Part shown: positions 6,973 through 27,028 of the stretch, one piece after another
How positions within the stretch are numbered: the stretch's first letter is position 1
Layout: every line of letters starts with the position of its first letter
From: Jiangella ureilytica
Lineage (GTDB): Bacteria; Actinomycetota; Actinomycetes; Jiangellales; Jiangellaceae
Assembly: GCF_004348545.1 (NCBI RefSeq)
Contig: NZ_SMKL01000063.1
Coordinates: forward strand, 1-35,699
DNA length: 35,699 nucleotides
Reading direction: 5' to 3'
Made by a program: the position numbers and the translations under genes
Notes under the pieces: model-generated
What the model was told of the DNA's origin: nothing
Databases searched by the model: none
Seen by the model: only the letters and a program-made list of their open reading frames with translations

Positions 6973-9227
6973 GGCATCCTCGCCCACGTCACGGAGAACG
7001 GGGGCAGCGCGAGCCGGAGCCGTCCGTCCTCGATCGGTTCGTCCCGCTCGGCGAGCGGGAACGGTGCCGGGTCGGCCGGGGTGGCCCGGGCGGTGATGTC
7101 CGGATGCGCGAGTGTGCTCACGCGCGCGGCCGCGGCCGACGCCGTCGCGCCCAGCTCGATCCGCACCGGCAGGGTCTCGGTGAGGTGCCGGTTGACGACG
7201 GCGAGCGCGAGGCCGCCGGCCGCGGAGCGGACCGCGAGCACGTCCACGTACGGCACGTCCTGCTCCGGCGCTCCCAGGTCGACCGGCTGCGTCACGTCGA
7301 ACCCGGGCCCCTTCAGCTCGCATCTCAGCGGCACCGCCCCGGCGAAGTCGGCGTAGTACTGGATCAGGTCGAACTGCGGGTCCGTGTAGACCCGGCCGCC
7401 GGCCTTCTTGATCGCGCCACCGTGCATGAACCCGTTCGGGCTGGCCATCGGGATGCGGTCCGCGGAGCGCATGACGAAGTTCAGGAACGTGCCGCCATAG
7501 ACGACGGCGCCGAAGTTCTCGACCATCTGCCGGTTCGGATGCAGCCCGAGCACCCCCCATTCGGTGACGGCGATCCCGATCGGCCGGCGGCCGCTGCCGG
7601 CGGTCGCGGTGTCGCAGCGGGCCAGCAGCTCCGGGACGAACCGCCGTTCCGCGGTGACGATCTGCCCGATCAACGCCTCGTGCGCCTCCGCGTCGCTGAG
7701 CCGCTCGAGCAGCCGGTCGTTCGCCGGCAGGCAGTGCAGCGACACCAGATCGATGTCGTCCGGCGCCAGCCGGAGCAGCTCGTCGTGCCACTCGTGATCG
7801 GCGTGGACGTGGTCGTACCGTTCGTCGAGGTCGGCGAAGTCGAACCAGTTGCCGCAGGCCAGCAGCGTCAGCGGGACGGGGCTGGCGGCGCGCATGGCGG
7901 CGGCGAACCGGGCGAACCGGGCCGCGTTCTCGGTTGAACCGACGTAGCCGCCCTGCCAGGCGCCGAAGTTCTCGTTGCCGACCTCCCAGACCCGCACGTC
8001 GTAGGGCTCGGGGTGGCCGTTCGCCGCCCGCAGCGCACCCATGGGCGTGGTCACCGGGCCGTTGCAGTACTCGACCCAGGCGGCCGCCTCCTCCGGCGTG
8101 CCCGTGCCGGAGTTCACGGTGATGTGCGGCGTGAAGCCCACCAGCTCGGCCAGCCGCAGGTACTCGTCGGTGCCGACGAGGTGGTGCTCCAGCCCGCCCC
8201 ACGCGTGGTTCGGGTACACCGGGCGGTCCTCGACCGGGCCGACGGCGTCGCGCCAGTGGTGGTGGCTGACGAAGTTGCCGCCCGGCCAGCGCAGTTGCGG
8301 GATCGTCGAGCGCCGCATGAGCTCGACGACGTCGGGGTCGAAGCCGTCCAGGTGGTCCGACGGCAGCAGCGAGACCCGGTCGACCAGCAGGTCCGCCGTG
8401 GTTGCCTCGTCGGACAGCCAACGCACGAAGAAGTCGACCGGCTCGCCGCGTGCGACGGCGCCCGCCGGCACCATCAGCCGCAGGTCCACCCGCTGCCAGC
8501 CGCGCGCCTCGACCCGCGCCCGAGCGCGAACCAGCACCTCGCCGACGCGGTGCGCGCCATCCGGGCCGGGCAGCCGCCGCCGGATGCCCACCTCGACGGA
8601 GCCGGCGGCCGGGTCGTCCCGGCGAGTACGGAGCCACACGCTGACGTCGTACTCGTGACAGCGGCGCACGGGCAGGAACACTCCCTGGCGGACACCCGCG
8701 GGGACGTCGTCGAGGGCGACGGTGCCGAGGTCGCCGTCCGCAGTGCTCGCGGCCAGCCGGACCGCTCCGCCCAGCCGGCCGACCGCCGGCGTCGCGACGC
8801 CCGGCGGGCCGATCCGCGACCAGCCGAGCGGCAGCCCGTCGGCGGAGTCGTCGTCGAGGAGCGCGATGCCGAAACCGGACGCCAGCGGCGACGACACCCA
8901 GTGCTCGGCGACGGCGGTGGGGTCGCCGCCGGACGTGTACAGCGCGACCAGCGTGCGGGCGTTGGCGGCCAGCTCCGCGCGCTGCTCGTCGCCGAGGTGG
9001 TGCTCGCGGGAGAACGCCGGGTTGAGCACCAGCTCCGCGCAGACGCCGCCGAGCGTCGCGTACGACATGTGCTCGAAGAAGTTGCCGAGTACCTCGGCCG
9101 GGATCCGCGGCCCCGTGGTGCCGAGGTCGAGGGTCACGACCGTCTCGCGCGACGTCGTCCGCTGATAGCCGAGCAGCGGGTGGACGTCGGCCCGCAGGGC
9201 CGTGGTGTCCGCCTCCACCTGGGTCAT
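6969..9227 (-). CDS. GH51-type alpha-L-arabinofuranosidase with inserted domain
   Basis: A 752-residue clan-A hydrolase of the GH51 type. The barrel starts at IPAEVLGNFFEHMSYATLGGVCAEL (about residues 42-66). It resumes at LRWPGGNFVSHHHWRDAVGP (312-331), has the acid/base in VGNENFG (E419) and the nucleophile in AVTEWG (E556), and ends in the usual C-terminal beta domain. About 200 residues between the first strand and the WPGGN motif are extra compared with compact GH51 enzymes; their beta-rich character resembles a carbohydrate-binding insert seen in long GH51 proteins. There is no signal peptide. ATG at 9227 is preceded by AGGAGG and overlaps the GH127 stop (ATGA). The upstream in-frame ATG lacks a site. 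Expected role: removal of alpha-linked arabinofuranose inside the cell. Confidence 0.88.
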   Translation of the reverse strand: MTQVEADTTALRADVHPLLGYQRTTSRETVVTLDLGTTGPRIPAEVLGNFFEHMSYATLGGVCAELVLNPAFSREHHLGDEQRAELAANARTLVALYTSGGDPTAVAEHWVSSPLASGFGIALLDDDSADGLPLGWSRIGPPGVATPAVGRLGGAVRLAASTADGDLGTVALDDVPAGVRQGVFLPVRRCHEYDVSVWLRTRRDDPAAGSVEVGIRRRLPGPDGAHRVGEVLVRARARVEARGWQRVDLRLMVPAGAVARGEPVDFFVRWLSDEATTADLLVDRVSLLPSDHLDGFDPDVVELMRRSTIPQLRWPGGNFVSHHHWRDAVGPVEDRPVYPNHAWGGLEHHLVGTDEYLRLAELVGFTPHITVNSGTGTPEEAAAWVEYCNGPVTTPMGALRAANGHPEPYDVRVWEVGNENFGAWQGGYVGSTENAARFARFAAAMRAASPVPLTLLACGNWFDFADLDERYDHVHADHEWHDELLRLAPDDIDLVSLHCLPANDRLLERLSDAEAHEALIGQIVTAERRFVPELLARCDTATAGSGRRPIGIAVTEWGVLGLHPNRQMVENFGAVVYGGTFLNFVMRSADRIPMASPNGFMHGGAIKKAGGRVYTDPQFDLIQYYADFAGAVPLRCELKGPGFDVTQPVDLGAPEQDVPYVDVLAVRSAAGGLALAVVNRHLTETLPVRIELGATASAAAARVSTLAHPDITARATPADPAPFPLAERDEPIEDGRLRLALPPFSVTWARMP

Positions 9228-11161
9228 CGGTTCCTCCTGTCGTTCGTGTCCTCGTCGGCCGGGATCCACACGCGCATGGCACCAGCACCGCGGTTGCCCC
9301 AGGCGAAGTACGGCACCAGCCGGAACTCGATCTCGGCCACGTCGTCGCCGCTGTCGGCGACGGAGGACGCGGCGCTGTACAGCGGTCCCGGCGGCGGCGG
9401 GCGATGCCGCCCGCGCCCGGCCAGCACCACCGGCAGCACGTCGTCACCGGCGACGGCGACAGGTGCGGCCGCGCCCGGCGTCACCCGGACGTCCTCCAGC
9501 ACCAGGTCGCCCGGCAGATCGGCCTGCTCCAGGCAGTACACGACCGGACCCCGCGTGTACGCGACGCAGCCGCGCAGCGCGTCGACGCGCGGGTGTGGCC
9601 GCAGCGTCCGGACCGGCAGGTCGAGGGTGAGCGTCACCTCCCGCGGTCCCGGGCCCACCGCCACGTACCCGTCCTCCACCAGCGGCTCCAGTACCGGCGC
9701 ACCGTCCACCACCAGTGAGAACGACGAGCACCATCCCGGGACCCGCAGCCGCAGTCCACGTGTGCGCAGCCCCTCGTCCGGCGCTATCGTTACGACGCCG
9801 TCCCACGGGTAGTCCGTGGACACGTGCAGCACGCCGCCGTCCAGCAGGTACTCGCCGGCCGCGTACAGGTGCAGCTGGAGCTCCGTGTCCGACGTGGTCA
9901 CCACGTAGTCGTGCACCGACGCCATCAGCCGGGCCAGGTTGGGCGGGCAGCACGCGCAGCCGAACCACGGCAGCCGCCCGGACGGCGAGTCCTCCTCGCT
10001 GCCGTCGTGCCCGGTGCGCAGTTGCAGCGGGTTCGAGTAGGTGAAGCCGGCGCCGTCGGCACTGACCCCGACGGCGACGGCGTTGTAGAGTGCGCGTTCG
10101 AGCTCGTCGGCGTACCGGCCGTGTCCGGTGGCCAGCAGCAGCCGCCAGTTCCACATGACCGACGCGATGGCGGCGCACGTCTCGGCGTAGGCCCGCTCGG
10201 CCGGCAGCTCGTACCGGTCGCCGAACGACTCGTCGCGGTGCCGGGAACCCAGACCGCCGGTCACGTGCGTCTTGCCGTCCACCATCGACGCCCACTGCCG
10301 CTCCATCGCGTGCAGCAGCTCCGGCTCGCCGGTCTCGAGGTACACGTCGGCCACGCCGGTCAGTAGGTAGAGCTGGCGCACGGCATGACCCGTGACCTCG
10401 TCGGCCGCGCGCACCGGCTGGTGGTCCTGGAAGTACGACGACGAGAAGTGGTCGTGTCCGAGCCGGCCGTGGCCGCGAGCGTCGATCATCCGGGCGGCGA
10501 GCTCGAGGTGGCGCCGCTCGCCGGTGTGCCGGTACAGCTCGACGAGCGCGGTCTCGATCTCCGGGTGGCCGCAGATGCCGGCCGTCTCGCCCGACTCCAC
10601 CACCGACGACACCAGCGTCAGGAACCGGTCGGCGATCGCGAGCAGGTCGTCACGGCCGGTGGTGCGGTGCAGCGCCACCGCGGCCTGGACGAGGTGGCCC
10701 AGGCAGTACAGCTCGTGCCCCCAGCGCAGGTCGCTGAAGCGGTCCTCCGTCTTCACGCCCTGGAACCACGAGTTCAGGTACCCGTCGGCGTCCTGCGCCC
10801 GGGCGAGCAGCCCGGCGACGTCGTCGACGAACTCCCGCGGGTAGCGTCCGCCGGGTCGCCCGGCGTCCCAGCCGGTCGCCTCGAGCACCTTGTAGATGTC
10901 GGAGTCGGCGAAATGCAGCCCGCGATACGCCGCGTCGCTCTCGCCCACCAGCCGGCGGAGGTTGTCCAGGTTCCCGGCTGTCTCCAGCTGCTCGATGCAG
11001 TGCGGGACGGTCGCCTCGGTGTTGCGCCGCTGCCACCGACCGAGCAGGCCGCCGGGGGAGAGCCGGACGGCGTCGTGTGCCACCGGGCGCCAGCGGGCGT
11101 GCGGGCTGGCATGGGCTCCGACGGGGCCGCCAGGCGCCGTCGTGGCGGTGGCCGCCGTCAT
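9224..11161 (-). CDS. GH127 beta-L-arabinofuranosidase
   Basis: A 645-residue member of glycoside hydrolase family 127 (DUF1680), the zinc/cysteine-dependent beta-L-arabinofuranosidases defined by Bifidobacterium HypBA1. All key residues are present with correct spacing: the acid/base Glu in GGLGSRHRDESFG (E311), the zinc ligands in YAETCAA (E327, C329) and the Cys pair in CACCPPN (C404 nucleophile, C405). The N-terminal (alpha/alpha)6 part includes FADSDIYKVLEA and LRWGHELYCLGHL; C-terminal beta-sandwiches follow. There is no signal peptide. The start ATG overlaps the stop of the upstream GH51 gene by ATGA, and its own stop overlaps the next ATG in the same way. It should release beta-1,2-linked L-arabinofuranose from imported oligosaccharides. 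Family assignment is firm; the exact linkage is inferred. Confidence 0.93.
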   Translation of the reverse strand: MTAATATTAPGGPVGAHASPHARWRPVAHDAVRLSPGGLLGRWQRRNTEATVPHCIEQLETAGNLDNLRRLVGESDAAYRGLHFADSDIYKVLEATGWDAGRPGGRYPREFVDDVAGLLARAQDADGYLNSWFQGVKTEDRFSDLRWGHELYCLGHLVQAAVALHRTTGRDDLLAIADRFLTLVSSVVESGETAGICGHPEIETALVELYRHTGERRHLELAARMIDARGHGRLGHDHFSSSYFQDHQPVRAADEVTGHAVRQLYLLTGVADVYLETGEPELLHAMERQWASMVDGKTHVTGGLGSRHRDESFGDRYELPAERAYAETCAAIASVMWNWRLLLATGHGRYADELERALYNAVAVGVSADGAGFTYSNPLQLRTGHDGSEEDSPSGRLPWFGCACCPPNLARLMASVHDYVVTTSDTELQLHLYAAGEYLLDGGVLHVSTDYPWDGVVTIAPDEGLRTRGLRLRVPGWCSSFSLVVDGAPVLEPLVEDGYVAVGPGPREVTLTLDLPVRTLRPHPRVDALRGCVAYTRGPVVYCLEQADLPGDLVLEDVRVTPGAAAPVAVAGDDVLPVVLAGRGRHRPPPPGPLYSAASSVADSGDDVAEIEFRLVPYFAWGNRGAGAMRVWIPADEDTNDRRNR

Positions 11162-12672
11162 CGGTCAGCCGGGCCGAGCTGGATCGCCGTCCAGGAGACC
11201 GCCGGAAGCCGCAGCCGCGCCACCTGGTCGTGCTCGGCGACCTTCGCCGCGCCGGGCACGACGCGCAGCGGGTCGTCGGCACTGTTGGCCGCGTACGGGT
11301 CGGCGTCGCTCAGCGTCGTCGCGTCGATCACCCGGTCCAGCCCGAGCGGGCGCATGTCGATGGACACGACCGCCTCCTCGGCGGGGTGGCGGTTGACCAG
11401 GAAGACCGCCGCCGACTCCGTCGCGCGGTCCCAGGTGGCCACGGCGTCGACCGGGGCGACGTCGCCGTACTTCGCCGTCGCGAACGGCGGGCCGGCCGCG
11501 TCGAGCCGCAGCACCTCGCCGCGTGCCAGCCGGGAGGCCTGCGCGAACGGGTGGAAGATCGTCTGCCGCCAGGCCTCGCCGCCCGGCTTCGTCATGATCG
11601 GCGCGATGACGTTGACCAGCTGCGCCTGGCTCGCGGCGGTGACCCGGTCGGAGTGCCGGAGCAGCGAGATGAGGATGTTCCCGACGACGACGGCGTCGGC
11701 CACCGAGTAGCGGTCCTCCAGCAGCGGCGGCGCGACGGGCCAGTCGTCGCCGGCCGGCACGACGGACTCCGCCCGCGACTGGTACCAGACGTTCCACTCG
11801 TCGAACGACAGGTTCACCCGGTGGTTGCTGCGCTTCACCGCGCCGACGTGGTCGATGGTGGCGACGACGGCGTCGATGAAGTGGTCGAGGTCGGTCACCG
11901 AGGCGAGGAAGCTGGCCAGGTCTTGGTCGTGCTCCTCGTAGTAGCGGTGCAGCGAGACGTAGTCGACCAGGTCGTAGGCCTCGGTGAGCACCGCGCGCTC
12001 CCACTCGCCGAACGTCGGCATGTCCGAGGCCGAGCTGCCGCAGGCGACCAGCTCGAGGCCGGGGTCGACGGCGCGCATCGCCCGGGCGGTCTCGGCGGCG
12101 ATGCGGCCGTACTCGTAGGCGGTCTTGTGCCCGAGCTGCCAGGGACCGTCCATCTCGTTGCCCAGGCACCACATGCGCACGCCGTACGGCTCCGGGTGCC
12201 CGTTGGCCCGGCGCAGGTCGGCGAGGGCCGACGCGGCGGTGCCGTTGACGTACTCCAGCAGGTCGACGGCATCCTGGACGCCGCGGGTGCCGAGGTTGAC
12301 GGCCATCATCGGCTCGATGCCGGCCCGCTCGGCCCACCGCAGGAACTCGTCGGTGCCGACGTCGTTGGGCTCGAGGGTGTGCCAGGCGAGGTCGAGCCGA
12401 GCCGGGCGCTGGTCGCGCGGGCCGACGCCGTCCTCCCAGCGGTACCCGGACACGAAGTTGCCGCCGGGATAGCGGACGGTCGTCACGCCCAGCTCGCGTA
12501 CCAGCTCCAGCACGTCGCGCCGAAAGCCGGACTCGTCGGCCGCCGGATGGCCCGGCTCGTAGATGCCGGTGTAGACGCACCGGCCGAGGTGTTCCACGAA
12601 CGAGCCGAAGGTCCGCCGGTTGACGGGGGCGATGCGGCGCTCGGGGCTGAGGGTGAAGTCTGCCTGGATCAC
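11158..12672 (-). CDS. abfA: GH51 alpha-L-arabinofuranosidase
   Basis: A 504-residue compact GH51 enzyme of the AbfA type. The motifs follow in family order: FGSFVEHLGRCVYTGIYEPGH, VRYPGGNFVSGYRWEDGVGP, TDEFLRWAE, the acid/base in CLGNEMDGPWQ (E173), DYVSLHRYY and the nucleophile in SFDEWNVWY (E292); these positions agree with the well-studied Geobacillus enzymes. The C-terminal jelly-roll (FLVNRHPAEEAVVSIDM) is intact. It is cytoplasmic and removes alpha-L-arabinofuranose from the non-reducing end of short oligosaccharides. GTG at 12672 follows AAGGA. It lies 43 bases after the permease gene and is coupled to the following GH127 gene by ATGA, so transporter and hydrolases should be produced together. 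Confidence 0.93.
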   Translation of the reverse strand: MIQADFTLSPERRIAPVNRRTFGSFVEHLGRCVYTGIYEPGHPAADESGFRRDVLELVRELGVTTVRYPGGNFVSGYRWEDGVGPRDQRPARLDLAWHTLEPNDVGTDEFLRWAERAGIEPMMAVNLGTRGVQDAVDLLEYVNGTAASALADLRRANGHPEPYGVRMWCLGNEMDGPWQLGHKTAYEYGRIAAETARAMRAVDPGLELVACGSSASDMPTFGEWERAVLTEAYDLVDYVSLHRYYEEHDQDLASFLASVTDLDHFIDAVVATIDHVGAVKRSNHRVNLSFDEWNVWYQSRAESVVPAGDDWPVAPPLLEDRYSVADAVVVGNILISLLRHSDRVTAASQAQLVNVIAPIMTKPGGEAWRQTIFHPFAQASRLARGEVLRLDAAGPPFATAKYGDVAPVDAVATWDRATESAAVFLVNRHPAEEAVVSIDMRPLGLDRVIDATTLSDADPYAANSADDPLRVVPGAAKVAEHDQVARLRLPAVSWTAIQLGPADR

Positions 12673-12715
12673 GTGGTGTCCTTCGTGAGTGCGTGCGGGT
12701 GCGTCGCGTGCTGCG

Positions 12716-13600
12716 TCACTTGATGCCGGTGGTCGCGATGCTCTCGATGAACCTCCGCTGGACGACGATGAACGCGATGATCATGGGGATGAGCGCGAGC
12801 GTCGCCCCGGCCATCAGCGGGCCGTAGTCGACGGTGTACTGGCCGCGGAACATCGACAGGCCGGCCGGGAGCGTGGTGGTGTCCTGGTCCGGCATGACCA
12901 TCAGCGGCCAGAGCAGGTCGTTCCAGTTGTTCACCAGGTTGAAGATGAAGATGGTGACCAGCGCCGGACCGGCCAGTGGGAACATGATGCGCCGGAAGAT
13001 CTGGAACTCCCCGGCGCCGTCGATGCGTGCGGCGTCCTCCAGGTCGCGCGGCATCGCCAGGAAGAACTGCCGCAGGAAGAAGATGCCGAACGCGTCGGCG
13101 ATCCGCGGGATGATCAGCCCGTGCAGGGTGTTGATCCAGCCCAGGTCGACCAGCAGGTTGTAGACCGGCACGAACGTCACCTGGATCGGCACCAGCAGGC
13201 TGGCGATCAGCGCGACGAAGACGAACGTCCGGCCGCGGAAGCGGAACCGCGCCAGCGCGTACGCGGCCATCGAGTCGATCACCACGGACACGCACGCGAC
13301 GGTGAGCGCGAAGATCGTGGTGTTCAGGAACTGCCGGCCGAACGGGATCATGCTCCAGATGTCGACGTAGTTCTGGAGCGTGACCTCCGAGGGGATGATC
13401 GTCGACGGGTTGCCGGTCAGGTCGCCCTGGGTGCGGATCGACGCCGTCAGCAGCCAGACCAGCGGCAGCAGCGCGACGACGGCCGCGGCGCTGACGACGA
13501 ACAGGCTCAGCAGTGTCCCGACGGAGAGCCGCGGGCGCGGCTTCGCCGTGGGTGCGGGCGCCGGCGAAGCGGCGGTGGGCGGGGCGGTGAGAGTGCTCAT
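12716..13600 (-). CDS. ABC sugar transporter permease (MalG/CUT1 type)
   Basis: A 294-residue inner-membrane permease with six predicted helices (first about residues 28-55, VGTLLSLFVVSAAAVVALL). The ATPase-contact EAA loop EDAARIDGAG (188-197) is followed by FPLAGPALVT, and the protein ends RRFIESIATTGIK, a common ending of the MalG branch. The Pro/Ala-rich N-terminal 24 residues are unremarkable. The start codon overlaps the stop of the partner permease (TGATG), showing coupling. Together with that partner and the upstream lipoprotein it forms a carbohydrate-uptake CUT1 importer. No ATP-binding subunit is encoded nearby. Confidence 0.93.
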   Translation of the reverse strand: MSTLTAPPTAASPAPAPTAKPRPRLSVGTLLSLFVVSAAAVVALLPLVWLLTASIRTQGDLTGNPSTIIPSEVTLQNYVDIWSMIPFGRQFLNTTIFALTVACVSVVIDSMAAYALARFRFRGRTFVFVALIASLLVPIQVTFVPVYNLLVDLGWINTLHGLIIPRIADAFGIFFLRQFFLAMPRDLEDAARIDGAGEFQIFRRIMFPLAGPALVTIFIFNLVNNWNDLLWPLMVMPDQDTTTLPAGLSMFRGQYTVDYGPLMAGATLALIPMIIAFIVVQRRFIESIATTGIK

Positions 13601-15954: not shown

Positions 15955-15998
15955 CCCGTTCGGCCGTTTCGTTACCGGTCTCGACACGGGAGGCCGCG

Positions 15999-17067: not shown

Positions 17068-18111
17068 TCAGTCGGCGGCGACGTCGTTGCGGACGGTGGA
17101 GTCGCGGACGACGACGCGGACGGGGCGCAGGTCGAGGCCGGGCGCGACCTCCTCGCCGGACAGCGCGGCGAAGATGCGCGACGCCGCGTAGCGGCCGAGC
17201 TCCTGCAAGCCGAGGTCGACCGACGTCAGCTCGGGCCGGGTGTTCGTGACGATGATCGGCCAGTTGTCGAAGCCCATGACGGCGACGTCGTCGGGAACCC
17301 GCAGCCGCCGGTCGCGGAGCACGTCGAGTGCTGCCCGGGCCAGCATGTCGGACGCGGCGATGAAGGCGTCGATGCCGGGCTGCTCGTCCAGCAGGCGGGC
17401 CGTGGCCAGCCGGCCCCAGCGTTCGGTCCAGCTGCCGGCCGACATGGGGGCCGTGATGAGCTCGCCGCCGAGTGCGGCCAGTGCCGCCCGGGCGCCCTCC
17501 GCGCGTTCGCGGGACGCGTCGTACGTCGGGTCGCCGCCGATGTAGGCGATGGAGCGGCGCCCGATCGACCACAGGTGCTCGGCCGCGAGCAGGCCGCCGA
17601 GCCGGTCGTCGGCCGCGACGGAGACGTCCTCGGGGTCGGCCGACGGCGCGTAGGCGTACACCACGGGCAGCGGCAGGTCACGGCCGAGCGAGGGCCGCGG
17701 CTCCGTGCGAGCGCCGCCCACCACGATGAGGCCGTCGATCCGCCGCTCGAGGAGGGTGCGCAGGTGCCGCCGCTCCCGGATCGCGTCGCCGCGGGCGTCG
17801 CAGAGGATGACGGAGAGCTCGCCGGCGCCCAGCGCGTCCTCGGCTCCGGCGAGGATCGGGATGACGAACCTGCCCTCGAGGTCGTTGGTCAGGATGCCGA
17901 CGGTCCCGGTGCGGCCGGCGGTGAGCTGCCGGGCGACGGCGCTGGGGCGGAAGCCGAGCTTCTCGGCCACCTCGCGCACCCGCGTCCGGGTGTCGGCGCC
18001 GACGCCGTACTTGTCGCGCAGCGCCTTGGAGGCCGTGGACTTCGACACGCCGGCTGCACGGGCGACGTCGGCGAGCGTGACTTCCCGCCGTGGCCGGTCC
18101 GCGATCTCCAC
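17068..18111 (-). CDS. LacI family repressor (divergent to second sugar operon)
   Basis: A 347-residue LacI/GalR regulator, distinct from its neighbour. The DNA-binding segment is EVTLADVARAAGVSKSTASKALRDKYGVGADTRTRVREVAEKLGFRPSAVARQL, followed by the sensor domain (GILTNDLEGRFVIPILAGAEDAL, DGLIVVGG, VMGFDNWPIIVTNTRPELTSVDL). GTG at 18111 is chosen because AGAGGAG lies 5-6 bases upstream; longer in-frame starts run into the promoter and operator. Divergent transcription from the GH127-like gene with one strong palindrome between them argues for control of the plus-strand operon and itself. Two different repressors back to back suggest that the two arms respond to different inducers. Confidence 0.9.
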   Translation of the reverse strand: MEIADRPRREVTLADVARAAGVSKSTASKALRDKYGVGADTRTRVREVAEKLGFRPSAVARQLTAGRTGTVGILTNDLEGRFVIPILAGAEDALGAGELSVILCDARGDAIRERRHLRTLLERRIDGLIVVGGARTEPRPSLGRDLPLPVVYAYAPSADPEDVSVAADDRLGGLLAAEHLWSIGRRSIAYIGGDPTYDASRERAEGARAALAALGGELITAPMSAGSWTERWGRLATARLLDEQPGIDAFIAASDMLARAALDVLRDRRLRVPDDVAVMGFDNWPIIVTNTRPELTSVDLGLQELGRYAASRIFAALSGEEVAPGLDLRPVRVVVRDSTVRNDVAAD

Positions 18112-18125
18112 CGCTGCTCCTCTGC

Positions 18126-18175
18126 TTGACAGCCCGTCCGCGTCAGACGATAGCATTCGTCGAAACCGGTTTCGA
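18126..18175 (+). promoter_or_regulatory. Divergent promoter with 16-bp perfect LacI operator
   Basis: TCGAAACCGGTTTCGA (18160-18175) is a perfect 16-bp palindrome with the CG centre typical of LacI-family operators, and a degenerate half-copy (AACCGTTTCC) follows. Rightward, TTGACA (18126-18131) and TAGCAT (18151-18156, 19-base spacing; GATAGC at 17 is the alternative) place the start of transcription inside or next to the palindrome. Leftward, TATCGT (18152-18147) is a plausible -10 for lacI, with the palindrome in its spacer. One bound repressor could block both directions. The palindrome is seen; promoter hexamers are weaker evidence. Confidence 0.8.
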
Positions 18176-18205: not shown

Positions 18206-19984
18206 ATGACCGCAACGACCTCCGGCCGGCCGGGCTCCGGCCCGGCCGCGGCCCTGACACAGCTCGAGCCGGTCGGCTACACCGGCGCGGTGACGCTGCA
18301 TGGCCGGCTCGGCCAGCGGGTCGCCCAGGCGATGGAGACCTACGGCGGTCTCAGCGACGACGATGTGCTCAAGGGCTTCCGCCGCGCCGCCGGGTTGCCG
18401 GCGCCCGGGAACGACCTGACAGGCTGGGCCGCCGAGACCAGCGCGATGACGTTCGGCCAGTGGGTCAGCGGACTGGCCCGGCTGGCAGCGGCGACCGGCG
18501 AGCGTGGCCTCGCGGCGAAGGCGTCCGGGCTGATCGCCGGGTACGCCGCGACGCTGGGCGCCGGCCACGACCCGCACCTGAACATCTACGCCTGGGAGAA
18601 GCTGGTCTGCGGGTTCGTCGACAGCGCGGTGTACGGGGGCGACGCAGGCGCGCTGCCGCTGCTGTCGAAGATCGTGCGCGCCGAGCGGTACGACCGGACC
18701 CGGGCGGCCGCCGTCGCCAACGACTTCTCCGGCGAGGAGCCGGACTTCACCATCGAGTGGTACACGCTGGCGGAGAATCTCTACCGCGGCCACTGGGCCA
18801 GTGGCGACGACGCCCTGGCGACGGCGGCGCGAGAGTGGCACTACGACGCGTACTGGGACCGCTTCCGCGAGCGTCCGGCGCCCGGCCGGCCCTGGGACAT
18901 CCCCGCGTGGCTGCACGCGTACAGCCACGTCAACACGTTCGCCAGCGCCGCCGCGGCGTACGAGATGCACGGCGACCCCGGCCACCTCGACATTCTCCGC
19001 AACGCCTACGACTGGCTGACCACCACGCAGACGTTCGCCACCGGCGGCTTCGGGCCGCACGAGTTCACCATGCCTCAGGACGGCACGCTGGGCCGCACGC
19101 TCGAGTGGATCACCGACAGCGCGGAGATCACCTGCGGCTCCTGGGCCGCGTTCAAGCTCTGCACCGCGCTGCTCCGATTCACCGGAGAGGCGCACTACGT
19201 CGACTGGGTCGAACAGCTGGTCTACAACGGCATCGGCGCGACGGTGCCGGTGCAGCCGGACGGCCGTACTCCGTACTACGCCGACTACCGGCTCGGGGTG
19301 GCGACGAAGCTGCCCTACTGGAACGCCTGGCCCTGCTGCTCGGGGACGTACGTCCAGGCCGTGGCGCACCTGCACGACCTGGTCTACTTCCGCTCGCCCG
19401 ACGGTCTGGCGGTCGCACTGTACGTGCCGTCGGAGTACAGCGGCGAGGTCGGCGGCGCGCGGGCGACGATCCGCCAGCGCACCACCTTCCCGGAGGCCGA
19501 CGACACCGTCGTCGAGATCGCACTGGACCGCCCGGCCGCCTTCACGCTACGGCTGCGGGTGCCGGGCTGGGCGGCCATGACGATCTCCGTCAACGACGAG
19601 CCGGTGCCGGTCACCGCCGGTGGCGACGAGTGGTTCGCGCTGGCCCGCACCTGGCGCGACGGCGACCGCGTCGCCGTCGGCCTCGGGCCGCGGCTGCGCG
19701 CGCTGCCCGTGGACGAGCAGCACCCGAACCGGGTCGCCATGGCCTACGGGCCCGTGGTGCTCGCCCAGGACGTCGACTGGGTCGTCCCCTTCGACGCCCC
19801 CGTGCCGTGGTCCATGCTCGACTGGGAGTCCCACCTGGTCCGCCAGGGCTCGCAGCTGCTCTTCCTGCCGGCCGAGCCGGGCACGCACCGCATGCCGCCG
19901 GGGCCCTTCCGGCCCTTCTACGAGGTGCCCGAACGGCGGCCCTACCGCATCTACCACGACCTCGGCTCACGCCGGATCGTCTGA
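18206..19984 (+). CDS. GH127-like (DUF1680) beta-L-arabinofuranosidase-related protein, divergent
   Basis: A 592-residue protein of the DUF1680/GH127 superfamily. It shares the fold landmarks (HLNIYAWEKLVCGFVDSAVYGG, FATGGFGPHEF, LYNG-like VYNGIG, a Cys pair in WPCCSGTY at C377-C378), but the motifs differ from the two other GH127 proteins here. The zinc-site segment reads SAEITCGSW (E307, C310), with one extra residue between Glu and Cys compared with the ETC of HypBA1. The Cys pair is followed by SGT rather than PPN, closer to GH146-type members. E286 in GPHEF is a candidate acid/base. No signal peptide. AGAGGA precedes the ATG. It is the first gene of the plus-strand operon and likely cuts a related but different arabinofuranoside. 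Confidence 0.8.
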   Translation: MTATTSGRPGSGPAAALTQLEPVGYTGAVTLHGRLGQRVAQAMETYGGLSDDDVLKGFRRAAGLPAPGNDLTGWAAETSAMTFGQWVSGLARLAAATGERGLAAKASGLIAGYAATLGAGHDPHLNIYAWEKLVCGFVDSAVYGGDAGALPLLSKIVRAERYDRTRAAAVANDFSGEEPDFTIEWYTLAENLYRGHWASGDDALATAAREWHYDAYWDRFRERPAPGRPWDIPAWLHAYSHVNTFASAAAAYEMHGDPGHLDILRNAYDWLTTTQTFATGGFGPHEFTMPQDGTLGRTLEWITDSAEITCGSWAAFKLCTALLRFTGEAHYVDWVEQLVYNGIGATVPVQPDGRTPYYADYRLGVATKLPYWNAWPCCSGTYVQAVAHLHDLVYFRSPDGLAVALYVPSEYSGEVGGARATIRQRTTFPEADDTVVEIALDRPAAFTLRLRVPGWAAMTISVNDEPVPVTAGGDEWFALARTWRDGDRVAVGLGPRLRALPVDEQHPNRVAMAYGPVVLAQDVDWVVPFDAPVPWSMLDWESHLVRQGSQLLFLPAEPGTHRMPPGPFRPFYEVPERRPYRIYHDLGSRRIV

Positions 19985-20004: not shown

Positions 20005-21297
20005 GTGTACACCAGACCGCAGCGTCGCGGCCTCGCATCGTTCGCCGTGGCCGGCGTAGCCGCCCTCCTCCTCGCCGCCTGCGGTGGCGAGTCCACCGAC
20101 TCGGGTGTCGACGGCGGCACCGTCACCCTCACCATGTGGGCCCGCTCCGACGACGAGGGCTTCCTGCCCGACCTCGTCGACGAGTTCAACGCCGCCCACG
20201 ACGACATCCGGGTCGAGCTCACTCTCGTCCCCGCCGCGCAGGTGGTGCAGAAGTACAGCACCGCGGCCAGCAGCGGTTCCGGGCCGGACATCGTCGCCGT
20301 CGAGATCGGGACGCTGCCGCAGTTCACCTCGACCGGGTGGCTGCAGGACATCACCGACTTCGTCGACGGGCTGGACTACAAGGACACCCTGAGCCCTGCA
20401 CACCTGAGCCAGGGCAGCGTCGACGACCGTGTCTACGGCGTCCCGCTGTCGGCCGACGTGTCGGTGCTCTACTGGAACAAGACGCTGTTCGAGGAGGCGG
20501 GGCTCGATCCCGAGGCGGCACCGGCCGCCTGGGCCGACATCCGGACCGCCGCGGAGGCCGTCACCGCACTCGGCGACGGCACGTCCGGCTACTTCTTCTC
20601 CGGCGGCTGCGCCGGTTGCATGGCGTTCACGATGCTGCCCTACGTCTGGGCCGGCGGGGGAGACGTGCTGGAGACGTCCGGCGACTCGGCGGTCGCGACA
20701 CTCGACCCGAACCCGGAGCTCGCGAGCGCCCTGGAGTTCCTGCGCGGCATGGTCGACGACGGCCTGGTCCCGGCGACCGCCCAGACGGAGAACGGCTCGG
20801 ACCAGTTCGGCCCCTTCTTCAGCCAGACCGTCGGCATGTTCGTTCAGGGCACCTACCCGTTCGCGCAGCTCAAGGCGAACTACCCGGACGTCGACTTCGG
20901 CATCACCCCGGTGCCGAGCGAGGACGGCGGCGCGTCGGCCTCCTTCGCCGGCGGTGACGACGTGGCGCTCACCGCCGACGCTGACACCGAGGCGGGACTG
21001 ACCGTGCTGGCCTGGCTGCTCGACGAGGGCCAGCAGTCGCTCGCGGACAAGGGCATCCTGCCGGTCCGGTCCGACATCGCGACCGACAGCTATGTCGGGC
21101 AGGACCCCCGGCACGAGGTCTTCGTGGAGGCGCTCGCCGTCGGGCACACCCCGAAGGCGGCCAAGGTGTCGTCTGTCTTCTTCGACAACAACGGCCCGTT
21201 CGGCGGCCTGGTCCAGCAGGCGATCTTCGGCGACCAAGCCGTCGACGACGCTCTCGCGGACGCACAGGCCGCCGCCGAGGCGGTCCTGAGCCAGTGA
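20005..21297 (+). CDS. Extracellular sugar-binding lipoprotein of second ABC importer
   Basis: A 430-residue family 1 solute-binding protein. The lipoprotein signal peptide has the basic stretch RPQRRG, a hydrophobic core and the lipobox LLAAC with the modified Cys at residue 26. The mature domain shows VTLTMWARSDDEGFLPDLVDEFNAAH, GVPLSADVSVLYWNKTLFEEAGLDP and MFVQGTYPF, the usual CUT1 binding-protein landmarks. The start is GTG at 20005 with AGAGGA 7 bases upstream; it lies 20 bases after the GH127-like gene. Its stop overlaps the next start by GTGA. It resembles the minus-strand binding protein only at family level, so the two importers probably recognise different oligosaccharides. Confidence 0.93.
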   Translation: MYTRPQRRGLASFAVAGVAALLLAACGGESTDSGVDGGTVTLTMWARSDDEGFLPDLVDEFNAAHDDIRVELTLVPAAQVVQKYSTAASSGSGPDIVAVEIGTLPQFTSTGWLQDITDFVDGLDYKDTLSPAHLSQGSVDDRVYGVPLSADVSVLYWNKTLFEEAGLDPEAAPAAWADIRTAAEAVTALGDGTSGYFFSGGCAGCMAFTMLPYVWAGGGDVLETSGDSAVATLDPNPELASALEFLRGMVDDGLVPATAQTENGSDQFGPFFSQTVGMFVQGTYPFAQLKANYPDVDFGITPVPSEDGGASASFAGGDDVALTADADTEAGLTVLAWLLDEGQQSLADKGILPVRSDIATDSYVGQDPRHEVFVEALAVGHTPKAAKVSSVFFDNNGPFGGLVQQAIFGDQAVDDALADAQAAAEAVLSQ

Positions 21298-22235
21298 GCG
21301 GCCTCCTGACCGGCGGCGTCGCGCCGTCGATCCGGCGCCGACCGGCGGCGACATCCCGCCGCCGGTCGGCGCGGGACCGGCGCACCGGGCTGCTGCTGGT
21401 CGTGCCGGCGCTGGCCCTGGTGGCCGTCGTCTTCGTCGCACCCCTGGCGCTGTCCGTGGTGATGTCGCTGAGCGACTGGCCGCTGCTGGGCGAGCGGACG
21501 TTCGTCGGGTTCGACAACTACACCCGGCTGTTCGCCGACCCGCAGGCCCGGCAGGCCATCGTCTTCACGCTCGGTTTCGCCGCCGTCGTCACGCCGCTGA
21601 CGCTGGTGGCCGGGCTGGTGCTGGCACTCCTCGTCCAGCACCGCCGCCGGGGCATCGGCCTGGTGCGCACCGCGGTCTTCGTGCCGGTCGCCATCGGCTT
21701 CGCGTCGGCCAGCTACCTGTTCCTGGCGCTGACGAACAGCTCGACCGGCGTGTTCGGGCGGCTGCTGACCGACCTCGGAATCACGGAACGGCCGGTCGAC
21801 TGGCTGCTCCGGCCGCGGCTGGCCATGCTGCTGGTCGTCCTCGTGACCCTCTGGAAGACGGTGGGCTTCGCGATGATCGCGCTGATGAACGGGCTGCACT
21901 CCGTCGGCCGCGACGTCGAGGAGGCGGCACGGGTCGACGGTGCCGGTGCGCTGCGCATCCTGCTGCAGATCAAGCTGCCCATGATGCGCGACTCGGTGGC
22001 GTTCGCGGCCACCTTCACCGCGATCGGCGCGTTCCTGGCGTTCGACCAGTTCTACATCCTCACAGGCGGTGGGCCGAGCAACTCGACGATCACCGCCGTC
22101 TACCGGATCTACAACACCGCGTTCATCCAGGGCCAGCTCGGCTACGCCGCGGCGATGTCGCTGGTGTTCCTCGTGTTCCTGCTGATCGTCACCGGCGCCC
22201 AGCTGGCGCTGTTGCGTCGCGGGAGGGTGACGTGA
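21294..22235 (+). CDS. ABC sugar transporter permease (MalF type), second importer
   Basis: A 313-residue CUT1 permease with an Arg-rich N-terminus (residues 14-30), a first helix TGLLLVVPALALVAVVFVAP and the MalF-type segment RTFVGFDNYTRLFAD. The EAA loop is EEAARVDGAG (209-218), and FDQFYILTGGGPSNST precedes the last helices. GTG start overlaps the binding-protein stop and its own stop overlaps the next GTG, both as GTGA, so three transport genes are translationally coupled. Its ATPase partner is not in the window. Confidence 0.93.
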   Translation: MSGLLTGGVAPSIRRRPAATSRRRSARDRRTGLLLVVPALALVAVVFVAPLALSVVMSLSDWPLLGERTFVGFDNYTRLFADPQARQAIVFTLGFAAVVTPLTLVAGLVLALLVQHRRRGIGLVRTAVFVPVAIGFASASYLFLALTNSSTGVFGRLLTDLGITERPVDWLLRPRLAMLLVVLVTLWKTVGFAMIALMNGLHSVGRDVEEAARVDGAGALRILLQIKLPMMRDSVAFAATFTAIGAFLAFDQFYILTGGGPSNSTITAVYRIYNTAFIQGQLGYAAAMSLVFLVFLLIVTGAQLALLRRGRVT

Positions 22236-23098
22236 GCGGTGTGGTCAGCGCGCCGGCGGGTCTTCGCGGTGCAGGCCGGCCGGGCGCGTGGACGTGGGCG
22301 CTCGTCGCGGCCATGGTCGCGGTGCTGTTCGCCTCGCCACTGATCGCCGTGCTCCTGGGCAGCTTCAAGTCGCCGGCCGAGGCGGCACGGACACCGCCCA
22401 CCTACGTGCCGGACGAGCCGAGCCTGCGCAACTACACGGCGCTGCAGGACAGCAGCGCCGGCGTGTGGACGGCCATCGGCAACAGCGCTCTCGTCGCGGC
22501 CGGTTCGGTGGTGCTGACCGTGGTGCTGGCGCTGCTGGCGGCGTACGGCTTCGAGCGGTACCGGTTCCGCGGCTCCGAGGCGGTCTTCGTGCTGATGCTC
22601 GCCGCGATCATGGTGCCGTTCCAGATCCTGGTGTCGCCGCTTTACGTCGTCCTCAACGCGCTCGGGCTGACGAACTCGCTGGTCGGCATCGTGCTCGTCA
22701 TCACGACGTTCCAGCTGCCGTTCTCGGTGTTCGTGATCCGCAACTCCTTCGCCGCCATTCCCGGAGAGCTGTACGAGGCGGCGGCCGTCGACGGCGCGGG
22801 GCTGTGGCGGACGCTTCGGGCGCTCGCGCCGCTGCTGCGCGCCGGGCTGATCACGGCGGCGCTGTTCACCTTCTTCGCGGCGTGGAACGAGTTCTTCGCC
22901 GCATTGATCCTGCTCGCCGACCAGGACAGGTTCACCCTTCCGGTGGTGCTGACGACGCTGATCAGCGGGGCGCGCGGCAGCGTCGACTGGGGCCTGCTCC
23001 AGTCAGGGGTCATCGTGACCGTCCTGCCCTGTGTCGTGATCTTCATCGTGCTGCAGAAGTACTACGTCAGCGGCATGACCGCCGGCGCCGGCAAATAG
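22232..23098 (+). CDS. ABC sugar transporter permease (MalG type), second importer
   Basis: A 288-residue CUT1 permease. The first helix (TWALVAAMVAVLFASPLIAVLL) is followed by FKSPAEAARTPPTYVPDEPSLRNYTAL, the typical MalG extracellular segment. The EAA loop is YEAAAVDGAG (181-190), and FFAAWNEFFAALILLAD and a C-terminal LQKYYVSGMTAGAGK complete the family pattern. It begins with GTG overlapping the partner permease stop. Nineteen bases separate it from the GH127 gene, whose own ribosome-binding site lies in that gap. Confidence 0.93.
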   Translation: MSGVVSAPAGLRGAGRPGAWTWALVAAMVAVLFASPLIAVLLGSFKSPAEAARTPPTYVPDEPSLRNYTALQDSSAGVWTAIGNSALVAAGSVVLTVVLALLAAYGFERYRFRGSEAVFVLMLAAIMVPFQILVSPLYVVLNALGLTNSLVGIVLVITTFQLPFSVFVIRNSFAAIPGELYEAAAVDGAGLWRTLRALAPLLRAGLITAALFTFFAAWNEFFAALILLADQDRFTLPVVLTTLISGARGSVDWGLLQSGVIVTVLPCVVIFIVLQKYYVSGMTAGAGK

Positions 23099-23117: not shown

Positions 23118-25016
23118 GTGACCCGACCGACGGTCTGGCCCGCACCACACGCTCGCCTCGCGCAACGCCCCCTCCCCGCTGGAGCCGTCACCGTCACCGG
23201 CGGTCCATGGCAGTACCGGCGGCGGACGAACGCCCGGGTGAGCCTGGCGCACGGGCTGGAGCAGCTCCGCCGGTCCGGCACCATCGCCAACTTCGCCCGG
23301 CTCGGTGCCGGGGGGAGCGGCGACGGCGGGCGGCACGGTCACCTCGACGCGTTCGACCCGGACACCAAGAACTTCGTCGACTCCGACGTCTACAAGTGGC
23401 TCGAGGCGGTCGCCTGGGCGAGGGTCGCCGAGCAGGTCCCCGCCGACGTGCTCGAGGCCGCCGACGAGATCGTCGAGCTGGTCGGCGGGGCGCAGGCGCC
23501 CGACGGCTACCTCAACACGTGGTTCCAGACCCTCGACCCGTCCGAACGCTTCAGCGACCTGCGGTACGGCCACGAGCTCTACTGTCTCGGCCATCTGATC
23601 CAGGCCGGCCTGGCCTGGCAGCGCGTGCGGGGCGACGACCGGTTGCTGAAGACCGGACGGCGGTTCGCCGACCTCGTCGTGGAGCGCTTCGGCGACTCCG
23701 ATGTGGTCTGCGGCCATCCGTGCGTCGAGATGGCGCTCATGGAGCTGACCCGCGAGACCGGTGAGCCGCAGTACGCCCGGCTGGCTGCCGCGATGATCGA
23801 CCGCCGGGGACGGGGCACGCTCGGCGCCGGGCGATTCGGGTCGGCCTATTACCAGGACGAGCGGCCGTACCGGGAGATGCGCACACTCGACGGACACGCC
23901 GTCCGGGCGCTCTACCTGGCGGCCGGCGCCACCGACGTCGCCACCGACAACGGGGATGGGGACCTGCTCGCCGCCGCCTGGCGGCAGTGGGAGGCGGTGC
24001 GCCGGTCGCGCGTGTACCTCACGGGCGGCCTGGGCTCTCGCCATCTCGGCGAGTCCTTCGGCGCCGACTACGAGCTGCCGCCCGACGCCGCCTACTGCGA
24101 GACATGCGCGGCCATCGGCCTGGTCATGTGGTCCTGGCGGCTGCAACTGACGCGTACCGACGGCGCGATCGGCGACCTGATCGAGCGCGCGGTGCACAAC
24201 GGACTGCTGTCCGGCGTCGCTCTCGGCGGCCGCTCGTTCCACTACACGAACCCGCTCGACGTGCACGATGCCCACCCGCGACAAGAGTGGTTCGAGATCG
24301 CCTGCTGCCCGCCGAACGTCATGCGGGCCATCGCGACCCTCGATCAGCTGGTCGCCACCGAAACGGACGACGGAGTCCAGCTGCACCAGTACGTGCCCGC
24401 GCGCATCGACGCCGGCCGCGGCCGGGTCCTGACGGTCGAGACCGGCTACCCGGCCGATGGCACGATCACCGTGCGCGTGCTGGCGGCGCCGGTGCAGCCG
24501 TGGGGGATGGCCGTGCGGGTCCCGGCGTGGTCGGCGCAACGGTTCGCGGTCGCGGTGAACGGCGCTCCGGCTCCGGCGGACGTCGCGGACGGGTACGCGA
24601 AGGTGCGGCGGGTGTGGCGGGAGGGAGACGCGATGACACTCACCCTCGACCTGGCCGTGCGGACCGTTCGCGCCGATCCGCGGATCAGCGCGGCGCGCGG
24701 CACCGTGGCCGTCGAGCGCGGCCCGATCGTCTACGCACTCGACGCGGCGGTCGCTGGTGGCGGCGACCCGGCCTTCGTACGGCTACAGGAGGACCTCGAC
24801 GCTCAGCCGGTGCCGTCCGCCGTGCCGGGATTGGTGGACCTCGACGTCGCCGTCCTACGCGAGCGGTTGCGGGACGCCGGCTGGCCGTACCTCGACACGG
24901 CCGATCCCGTCGCCGGGGTTGCCGCCCGAGTTCGGCTGGTCCCGTTCGCGCATGCCGGCAACGCCGGAGCGGGCCCCTTGCGCACCTGGCTCGGCGCCAC
25001 TCCTGCGGGTGGCTGA
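23118..25016 (+). CDS. GH127 beta-L-arabinofuranosidase, second copy
   Basis: A 632-residue GH127 enzyme with the full HypBA1-type active site: the acid/base Glu in GGLGSRHLGESFG (E312), zinc ligands in YCETCAA (E328, C330), and the Cys pair in ACCPPN (C396, C397). Other conserved blocks are FVDSDVYKWLEAV, FSDLRYGHELYCLGHLIQAG and the C-terminal RLVPFAHAGNAGAGPLRTWL. There is no signal peptide. GTG at 23118 follows CGAGGAG. It ends the plus-strand operon behind the importer. It differs enough from the minus-strand GH127 (no Ala-rich N-terminus, different loops) that recent duplication is unlikely. Expected to release beta-linked L-arabinofuranose in the cytosol. Confidence 0.93.
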   Translation: MTRPTVWPAPHARLAQRPLPAGAVTVTGGPWQYRRRTNARVSLAHGLEQLRRSGTIANFARLGAGGSGDGGRHGHLDAFDPDTKNFVDSDVYKWLEAVAWARVAEQVPADVLEAADEIVELVGGAQAPDGYLNTWFQTLDPSERFSDLRYGHELYCLGHLIQAGLAWQRVRGDDRLLKTGRRFADLVVERFGDSDVVCGHPCVEMALMELTRETGEPQYARLAAAMIDRRGRGTLGAGRFGSAYYQDERPYREMRTLDGHAVRALYLAAGATDVATDNGDGDLLAAAWRQWEAVRRSRVYLTGGLGSRHLGESFGADYELPPDAAYCETCAAIGLVMWSWRLQLTRTDGAIGDLIERAVHNGLLSGVALGGRSFHYTNPLDVHDAHPRQEWFEIACCPPNVMRAIATLDQLVATETDDGVQLHQYVPARIDAGRGRVLTVETGYPADGTITVRVLAAPVQPWGMAVRVPAWSAQRFAVAVNGAPAPADVADGYAKVRRVWREGDAMTLTLDLAVRTVRADPRISAARGTVAVERGPIVYALDAAVAGGGDPAFVRLQEDLDAQPVPSAVPGLVDLDVAVLRERLRDAGWPYLDTADPVAGVAARVRLVPFAHAGNAGAGPLRTWLGATPAGG

Positions 25017-25273: not shown

Positions 25274-25295
25274 GGGGTGAGAGGAGGTGGTCGTG

Positions 25296-25967
25296 ATGGC
25301 CCTGACGCAGGAGAACACGAACGAGAGCGGACTGCTCGAGGCCCTCGGGCATGCCCGGTCGTCGGTGCGGCTGAGGGCGGCGATGGCGGCGGGCACGCGG
25401 CCGGACCCTCGGTACGTCGAGAAGCTGATCGAGCGCTGCGCGGTCGAGCCGGACTTCTTCGTGCGCGACATGCTCACCTGGGCGCTCACCCGGCAGCCGC
25501 CGTCCGTCACTGTGCCCCGGCTGGTCGACGAGCTGGGGTCGGGCCGGGCCCAGGCACGGAGTCAAGCGTTGCACACGCTGTCCAAGATCGGCGACGGGGG
25601 AGCGTGGCCGGCGATCTCGCGGTCGCTCCTGATCGACCCCGACGATGAGGTGGCCCGGAGCGCGTGGCGGGCGGCCGTCGTGCTCGTGCCCGACGGTGAG
25701 AAGGGCGAGTTGGCCGCGGCGCTGGCGACGCAGCTCGGGCGGGGCGACCGCGACACGCAGCTGAGCCTGAGCCGGGCGCTGATCGCGCTCGGCGACGTGG
25801 TCGAGCCGGTCCTGGCGACGGCGACGGCGAGCGGACAGCCCCGGGTGCGCACGCACGCGATCGCCACCGAGCGGCTGCGGCGCGACCCGGACACCGGCTT
25901 CGAGGCCGCGATCGAGGAGGCCAAGCGCATCGTCGCGCTGGGTCCGCAGGAGGAGGGCGCTGCGTAG
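25296..25967 (+). CDS. HEAT-repeat protein of unknown function
   Basis: A 223-residue all-helical protein with HEAT/armadillo-type repeats, about five to six units of 30 residues (for example SVRLRAAMAAGTRPDP, FVRDMLTWALTRQPP, QARSQALHTLSKIGDGG, VARSAWRAAVVLVPDG, DTQLSLSRALIALGD). HEAT repeats form curved superhelices that bind proteins or nucleic acids; no catalytic motif is visible. No signal peptide or membrane helix. The ATG at 25296 is chosen because GAGGAGG stands 8 bases upstream. It is the first gene behind the MerR-type promoter and its stop shares one base with the start of the MerR-HEAT gene (TAGTG), so the two proteins are made together and may interact. Function not known. Confidence 0.85.
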   Translation: MALTQENTNESGLLEALGHARSSVRLRAAMAAGTRPDPRYVEKLIERCAVEPDFFVRDMLTWALTRQPPSVTVPRLVDELGSGRAQARSQALHTLSKIGDGGAWPAISRSLLIDPDDEVARSAWRAAVVLVPDGEKGELAAALATQLGRGDRDTQLSLSRALIALGDVVEPVLATATASGQPRVRTHAIATERLRRDPDTGFEAAIEEAKRIVALGPQEEGAA

Positions 25968-27028
25968 TGCTCATCGGTGAGGTCGCCCGCAGGTCCGGGG
26001 TCAGCGCGCGCATGCTCCGGCACTACGACGCGCTGGGCCTGGTGCGGCCGACGGGGCGTACGGTGGGCGGGTACCGCGAGTACACCGGCGAGGACATCCG
26101 CCGGATCCTCCACGTCGAGAGCCTGCGCTCGCTCGGCCTGTCGCTGCGCGACGTCGGGCGGGCGCTGGACGATCCCGGCTTCGACCCCGCCGGCCTCATC
26201 GACGACCTGATCGGCCGGACGCGGGAGCGCATCACGCGCGAGAAGGAGCTGCTCGCGCGCCTGCGCCTCATCGACGCCGCGGAGCCGGCCGACTGGGAGG
26301 AGGCGCTCGGGATCGTCGCGCTGCTGCAGGCGCTCGGCTCCGACAGCCCGAAGGTCCGCCAGCGCGCCGCGCTCTCGTCGATCGGCGACGCGCCCGTGGA
26401 ACTGCTGGTCGAGGCGGCGCTCATGGAGCCGGACCTCAACGTCGCGGGCGCCCTGCAGTGGGCGTTGAGGCGGTCCGACGGCGATGCGCTCGCCGTGCTG
26501 GCGGCCGCACTCCGGCCCGGCGACGGCGGCGGCGGCGACGACGACGACGGTGGTGGCGGCGGCGGCGCAGGCGTGCGCAAGCGGGCCGTCGCGTTGATCG
26601 CGCAGGTGCCGGGCGATGACGCGACGGACCTGCTCAGGGGTGCCCTGAACGACCCGGACGTCGGCGTCCGCCGGGCCGCGGCGCTGGCGCTCGGGGAGCG
26701 CGGCGACGCGGCCGCCGTCCCGACGCTGATCGACATGGTCGTCGACGGGGTCAACGACGTCGACGCCGGGGACGCGCTGAGCAGGTTGGCGCGGGAGCGC
26801 GACCTCGCGGACCGGATCGTCGCCGAGCTGGTCGCCCAGCTCGGCGACGACGGCGCCGGGACGCCCGTGCGGACCCGGATCGCGCAGGCGCTGGCGGATC
26901 TGCCGGGCGCCGCGGCGACCCGTGCGCTCACCGAGCTGGCCGGCAGCGATGAGCCGTCGATCGCGCTGACCGCCGCCTACGTGCTGCAGCGGCGCGAGGC
27001 GCGAGACGGCCCTCAACCCACGAGTTAG
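25967..27028 (+). CDS. MerR family regulator fused to HEAT repeats
   Basis: A 353-residue protein. Residues 1-70 are a MerR winged helix (LIGEVARRSGVSARMLRHYDALGLVRPTGRTVGGYREYT, then DIRRILHVESLRSLGLSLRDVGRAL). A dimerisation coiled coil follows at about 75-105. The rest is HEAT repeats (SPKVRQRAALSSIGD, LNVAGALQWALRRSD, VGVRRAAALALGERGD, EPSIALTAAYVLQRRE), interrupted at residues 185-202 by a Gly/Asp linker encoded by a GC-rich simple repeat. In typical MerR proteins the effector site follows the coiled coil; here HEAT repeats take its place, so the signal may be a protein, perhaps the partner HEAT protein. GTG start overlaps the upstream stop by one base. The 19-bp-spaced promoter upstream is the likely target. 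Confidence 0.85.
   Translation: MLIGEVARRSGVSARMLRHYDALGLVRPTGRTVGGYREYTGEDIRRILHVESLRSLGLSLRDVGRALDDPGFDPAGLIDDLIGRTRERITREKELLARLRLIDAAEPADWEEALGIVALLQALGSDSPKVRQRAALSSIGDAPVELLVEAALMEPDLNVAGALQWALRRSDGDALAVLAAALRPGDGGGGDDDDGGGGGGAGVRKRAVALIAQVPGDDATDLLRGALNDPDVGVRRAAALALGERGDAAAVPTLIDMVVDGVNDVDAGDALSRLARERDLADRIVAELVAQLGDDGAGTPVRTRIAQALADLPGAAATRALTELAGSDEPSIALTAAYVLQRREARDGPQPTS

Follow-up and report, generated by a model that had tools for sequence, protein, structure and literature searches.

Among the PF07944 proteins related to the glycosidase families GH127 and GH146, there is a branch in which the glutamate of the presumed zinc motif is displaced by one residue, so that the usual E-x-C becomes E-x-x-C. 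This spacing is a trait of the whole clade and not a chance feature of one sequence, and from the alignments and trees, in which the rows are labelled by similarity, we read the branch as a third lineage beside GH127 and GH146. Its member studied here is a protein of 592 residues encoded at 18206..19984 on the + strand of the window, by which we mean the whole 35,699-nucleotide stretch of Jiangella ureilytica DNA analysed, a contig of a 6.35-Mb genome. We consider it reasonably probable that this uncharacterised lineage would use a zinc- and cysteine-dependent retaining mechanism with E307 at the metal, acting in the cytosol on imported arabino-oligosaccharides and releasing beta-L-arabinofuranose.

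Displaced glutamate in the presumed zinc motif

The open translation of 18206..19984 contains the PF07944 catalytic domain (residues 30–390; 88 bits against a gathering cut-off of 24.9) and the PF20736 middle domain (residues 401–493). It reads DSAE307-I-T-C310-GSWAAFKL at the shifted presumed zinc motif, whose four codons occupy 19124..19135 (+), and WPC377-C378-SGT at the cysteine pair (codons at 19334..19339, +), which presumably supplies the nucleophile and zinc ligands. An earlier sequence-only reading of the window had numbered E307, C310, C377 and C378 correctly, and its contrast between EITC here and E-T-C in the window's two further PF07944 proteins is true, as those proteins read CETC and AETC. 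Both are canonical GH127-type proteins with CCPPN after the zinc motif: the CETC protein (23118..25016, +; 356.7 bits to GH127 4qjy) and a second one with AETC in a neighbouring operon (9224..11161, − strand). Both match PF20737, the C-terminal GH127 domain, which Pfam did not detect in the 592-residue protein and which was not found in the four branch proteins scanned. The 592-residue protein scores 78.9 bits against the aceric acid hydrolase model NF049879, for which the curated cut-off is 950, and no hydrophobic N-terminal stretch was seen in it.

With a branch profile built from 11 branch members, we scored the open reading frames of the fetched loci. All 16 distinct branch members have E-x-x-C and score 720–1091 bits, and this spacing occurs in none of the 94 other PF07944 proteins compared, the best of which reaches 262 bits. 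After de-duplication on the sequence surrounding the last CC, 106 profile matches remained, and because all 16 best-scoring ones have E-x-x-C, the spacing is not ascribed to chance. The script called E-x-C in 88 of the 90 remaining matches; the two uncalled proteins (L104 and L107) and four CC-less proteins dropped by the de-duplication (L090, L105, L106 and L125) have E-x-C by alignment. Some rows gave several motif calls, for instance at E-T-C-C, and the aligned one was chosen for L065 and L021. The motif among the relatives is EITC, EIVC, EVVC, ETLC or ETPC.

The columns were checked in an alignment of 44 rows, comprising 16 branch, 13 GH127-like and 15 GH146-like rows. Glutamate stands at C−3 in 16/16 branch rows and in 0/13 and 0/15 of the GH127-like and GH146-like rows, respectively, and at C−2 in 13/13 and 15/15 of the latter two groups and in 0/16 branch rows, so that the shift holds when a normal E-x-C spacing is sought by alignment. 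The canonical glutamate position is occupied by Ile, Val or Thr in all branch rows. Lysine at C+7 is found in 16/16 branch rows, and the GH146-like rows have Lys in 13 and Arg in 2 of 15; this lysine keeps the helix in register, which argues that the glutamate has been displaced and not the cysteine. The cysteine pair reads CC[S/T]GT in 16/16 branch rows. The contrast between SGT and PPN, offered earlier as a peculiarity of this protein, is real but ordinary, since the GH146-like rows have CC-x-G-[T/S] in 15/15, and we rejected it as a distinguishing mark because it is the GH146-type state.

Position of the branch beside GH127 and GH146

Two trees were used for the placement. In the first, with 42 of 65 rows after 23 near copies or short rows were left out, a split at 100/98 separates the branch from the other rows. 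The second, of 68 hand-picked rows with the zinc motif masked and the root unknown, has the branch separate at 97/80.6 on the GH146 side, with the GH127-like rows apart from it at 100/100 and 40 GH146-like and Cys-Asp rows together at 100/98, the branch lying outside. The tree program rates the placement of L010 and L043, both of them long rows, as unsure. Rows were called GH146-like on similarity, L044 for instance scoring 418.5 bits to BT0349 (5opj), and none of the sequences in the tree carries a CAZy label. The branch profile matches BT0349 over nearly its full length at 124.9 bits and GH127 Ara127N almost equally at 118.5 bits, and the single 592-residue protein prefers GH127 (72.6 versus 57.6 bits), Ara127N being its best single-sequence match in the PDB. 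Because these scores are nearly equal and the single protein leans to GH127, we claim a third lineage rather than membership of GH146.

The proposal of a separate subfamily is supported by both trees, and the branch falls outside both groups of similarity-labelled rows, but the name "GH127-like" proved too narrow for a branch that lies on the GH146 side and carries CC-x-GT, a GH146-type feature. GH142 was rejected as close kin: GH127 and GH146 constitute clan GH-P (PMC10850190), and GH142 groups with GH121 and GH63 by structure (PMC7263609). GH142 BT_1020 was not among the matches listed, an absence that does not amount to exclusion.

As a separate observation, six actinobacterial PF07944 proteins (L104, L105, L106, L107, L125 and L090) show a further change at the presumed metal site: they have Asp for the second cysteine of the pair and keep E-x-C. 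They read C-D-H-G-T in five cases and C-D-T in L090, and five Cys-Asp proteins form one clade at 100/99 among the GH146-like rows.

The enzymes of GH146 (BT0349, 5opj; Bll3HypBA1, 8k7y) resemble the branch in CC-x-G-T, in being the nearest side of the tree, in a fold match at Z 28 and in having the acid/base Glu and the sugar-site Trp, Tyr and Glu in the same aligned places. They differ in their E-x-C spacing and in having Asn and Glu where the branch has Tyr239 and Gln384, and the branch protein is about 25% identical to the GH146-like L044. GH127 (HypBA1, 3wkw; Ara127N, 4qjy) shares PF07944, PF20736, the cysteine pair, H237, the distal cysteine and the fold with the branch, and differs in E-x-C, in CCPPN, in its separate clade and in PF20737, which the branch does not match. 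The DagA carrageenan enzymes, alpha-1,3-(3,6-anhydro)-D-galactosidases under a GH127 label, were compared by description and are evidence that a change of sugar is possible within the family (PMC5698469); their source organism was not among the 60 listed of 267 plasmid records. No E-x-x-C subfamily is named in the titles and abstract openings of the literature listings, which is no proof that none has been described.

Predicted structure and possible mechanism

An AlphaFold2 model of the 592 residues was computed from eight rows (pLDDT 71.6, pTM 0.77). It matches GH146 8qf8 with a Z-score of 28.0 over 526 residues and GH127 6ex6 with 27.9 over 504 residues, the next unrelated structure following at 16.5, and the branch protein is accordingly modelled with the barrel plus beta-sandwich fold of GH127 and GH146. 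The metal site is weakly predicted, with pLDDT of 62 and 63 for the blocks 301–310 and 371–380, and the acid/base loop (residues 281–300) lies under 50. The window's canonical GH127 was modelled as a control; a predicted helix covers the motif in both models, and, given the weak prediction of the site, comparing the two secondary structures was uninformative.

All three groups of the 44-row alignment have C310, C377, C378 and H237 without exception, and E307, E286, W74, Y128 and E184 are invariant in 16/16 branch rows. The column of E286 holds Glu in 15/15 GH146-like rows and other residues in GH127-like rows; W74, Y128 and E184 are identical in the GH146-like rows wherever the trimmed row reaches, namely in 6, 13 and 13 of 15. 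In the profile alignment, W74, Y128, E184 and E286 correspond to W429, Y526, E578 and the acid/base E694 of Bll3HypBA1, where mutation of any of these four residues or of a zinc ligand removed all or nearly all activity (PMC10850190). The suggestion that cysteine catalysis is still possible is therefore supported by the aligned catalytic residues kept in the branch. Tyr239, found in 16/16 branch rows, takes the place of Asn630, which matters for the activity of Bll3HypBA1 (PMC10850190), and this replacement makes the sugar site differ from that of GH146, which weighs against simply assigning the branch to that family. Gln384 is also present in 16/16 branch rows, with Glu in GH146-like and Arg in GH127-like rows at this position, and other states of the branch are W375 ahead of the cysteine pair and G311.

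It is unusual for a retaining glycosidase to attack with a cysteine (PMC10728902), and according to PMC10850190 the members of clan GH-P have the Cys3-Glu zinc site in common. In the mechanism that we propose for the branch, C377 would attack the anomeric carbon to give a thioglycosyl intermediate, as in the retaining mechanism of GH127 and GH146, and E286 would serve as the acid/base. A zinc ion, held by C310, C377, C378 and a glutamate, would make deglycosylation possible. E307 would be this glutamate, its distance to the cysteine being one residue greater than in GH127 and GH146. Since a helix is predicted from residue 306, residues 307 and 310 would share one face (i, i+3), which could let E307 reach the metal; such an arrangement would be a plausible compensation for the shifted glutamate. 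The enzyme would probably act in the cytosol on oligosaccharides taken up by the ABC importer of its operon, beside the canonical GH127. Because the importer operon brings in oligosaccharides and a canonical GH127 stands alongside, the removal of a furanosyl residue seems most likely, probably beta-L-arabinofuranose in a linkage that GH127 does not cut. We infer the metal ligand role of E307, the catalysis, the substrate and the cytosolic location alike.

Operons of the window

The branch gene leads its operon, as had been noted from the sequence, behind a divergent gene for a LacI-family regulator (17068..18111, − strand). It is followed on the + strand by the genes for the solute-binding protein (20005..21297) and two permeases (21294..22235 and 22241..23098) of an ABC importer, and then by that for the canonical GH127 at 23118..25016. 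A perfect 16-bp palindrome, TCGAAACCGGTTTCGA, lies between the divergent LacI and branch genes at 18160..18175; no further copy with one mismatch or fewer exists in the genome, and the palindrome is likely a LacI-type operator. A copy with three mismatches at 15969–15984, upstream of the neighbouring − strand operon with an importer and GH51/GH127 genes, may be a related operator. This − strand operon contains the GH127 gene at 9224..11161, a gene for the GH51 arabinosylfuranosidase ArfA (11158..12672, −; 705.6 bits against a cut-off of 625), a GH51-like gene and a GH1-like gene.

Elsewhere in the window, a gene for a separate HEAT-repeat protein (25287–25967) precedes one for a protein in which a MerR-type DNA-binding domain is joined to HEAT repeats (25967–27028), and a Mutator-family transposase gene lies near the contig end (41–784).

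Distribution and gene neighbourhoods

The branch is rare in the sampled genomes. At E 1e-40, 3/393 genomes in the class of the window are carriers, its own genome included; at 1e-60, 1/396 genomes of the phylum is a carrier, namely the same genome. There are 12 carriers among 396 genomes in the order of G359, all in the actinobacterial family f47, where branch members occur in 12/24 genomes with G359 included, and 2/392 in a further class sample. One genome-contig scan yielded three relatives at 54% identity, from a MAG and two Occultella species. A 38% relative is present in G008, of the same genus as the window, and a 33% relative on a Croceibacterium plasmid. Beyond Actinomycetota, the search covered collections of plasmids, phages and viruses: neither the branch profile nor the canonical GH127 of the window matched any viral contig, and eight phage records weakly match the 592-residue protein, none covering 80%.

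The f47 operon has the order GH127, solute-binding protein, permease, permease, DUF624 and branch gene, and it is kept in 12/12 carrier genomes. For ten of these genomes the operon was read directly (L048 and nine others); for G759 and G758, L040 and L041 were taken instead, the scores and motifs being identical. The DUF624 assignment comes from Pfam in L048 and from clustering in the other f47 loci. Directly downstream of the branch gene lies, in 4/12 cases, a cluster with the GH93-like L068 member (134.9 bits to exo-arabinanase 3a71; one member tested) and, in 4/12, a cluster whose L040 member is GH31. The GH127 of the f47 operon compares at 49–53% with the window GH127 at 9224..11161 and at 39–42% with that of the branch operon; given its closer match to the former, the f47 operon resembles both window operons taken together.

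The other neighbourhoods are more varied. The MAG member (L039) is accompanied by GH51, solute-binding protein and permease genes, with no GH127 within 6 kb upstream. The G008 member has DUF4185, GDSL and Gfo/Idh/MocA neighbours and is without such an importer. The Croceibacterium member is also without an importer operon and adjoins OiaX/OiaK-like, GH28, GH2 and fucosidase genes; a sialidase-like protein of Croceibacterium, considered as kin of the GH93-like protein, is not close (E 0.018). By eye, the G008 and Croceibacterium proteins start with a Tat-like signal. Given these divergent neighbourhoods and signals, both substrate and location may differ within the branch.

Substrate and alternative explanations

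The window and f47 operons point to arabinan-type oligosaccharides because of GH51 ArfA in the neighbouring operon and the GH93-like gene in f47 operons. Both arabinans and arabinogalactan proteins carry beta1,3-linked Araf termini (PMC10850190). These operons speak against the idea that the same cysteine and zinc chemistry acts, at least in part of the branch, on another furanose such as beta-D-apiofuranose. We regard this idea as unlikely, even though a GH127 in the same operon would be redundant if the branch enzyme cut the same linkage or sugar, and Tyr239 and Gln384 replace the Asn and Glu of GH146 throughout the branch. It also draws on Croceibacterium, in which the branch gene is directly followed by OiaX-like (452.6 bits) and OiaK-like (435.1 bits) genes, of a kind involved in oxo-isoapionate breakdown, with the GH28, GH2 and fucosidase genes nearby, but both matches score under their cut-offs of 700. 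Apiose genes were seen in Croceibacterium only and not among the proteins scanned around the window and f47 operons, and the literature listings on apiose name no apiosidase of the branch kind. The stretch at 10665–13201 of the Croceibacterium plasmid locus L043, with its OiaX-like (RuBisCO-like) and OiaK-like genes, is in itself a possible apiose or apionate locus.

Alternatively, E307 might not be on the metal, leaving a three-cysteine zinc site, or the zinc might have been lost and the chemistry changed. The canonical position holds Ile, Val or Thr in every branch row, and replacement of the canonical zinc Glu abolished the activity of Bll3HypBA1 (PMC10850190), but the glutamate at C−3 is itself invariant in 16/16 members down to about 34% identity, and we hold this alternative to be distinctly improbable. 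It is very improbable that the cysteine ligand hopped to a second cysteine (E-T-C-C to E-T-x-C) with the glutamate unmoved: E-T-C-C does occur in several GH146-like proteins, and in L010 and L043 the C-to-CC distance is 66, the value counted from the second cysteine of some E-T-C-C proteins, but the other 14 members have 67. The residues that follow C310, with Lys at C+7 and an aromatic one at C+3, are in register with the first cysteine in 16/16, which disfavours such an origin.

Implications

The full proposal is that the branch is a third family-level zinc/cysteine lineage whose metal site has been re-spaced and whose furanoside specificity is unlike those of GH127 and GH146, and that it has been kept to partner GH127 in an operon for the import of arabino-oligosaccharides. 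It is a tentative proposal, about which we are more doubtful than confident. The branch also shows that the automatic label "beta-L-arabinofuranosidase domain" covers at least three lineages. A natural branch with its glutamate moved by one residue would offer a direct test of the geometry that deglycosylation needs and probe the flexibility of the metal site, and the branch might provide a possible new furanosidase for plant arabinans.
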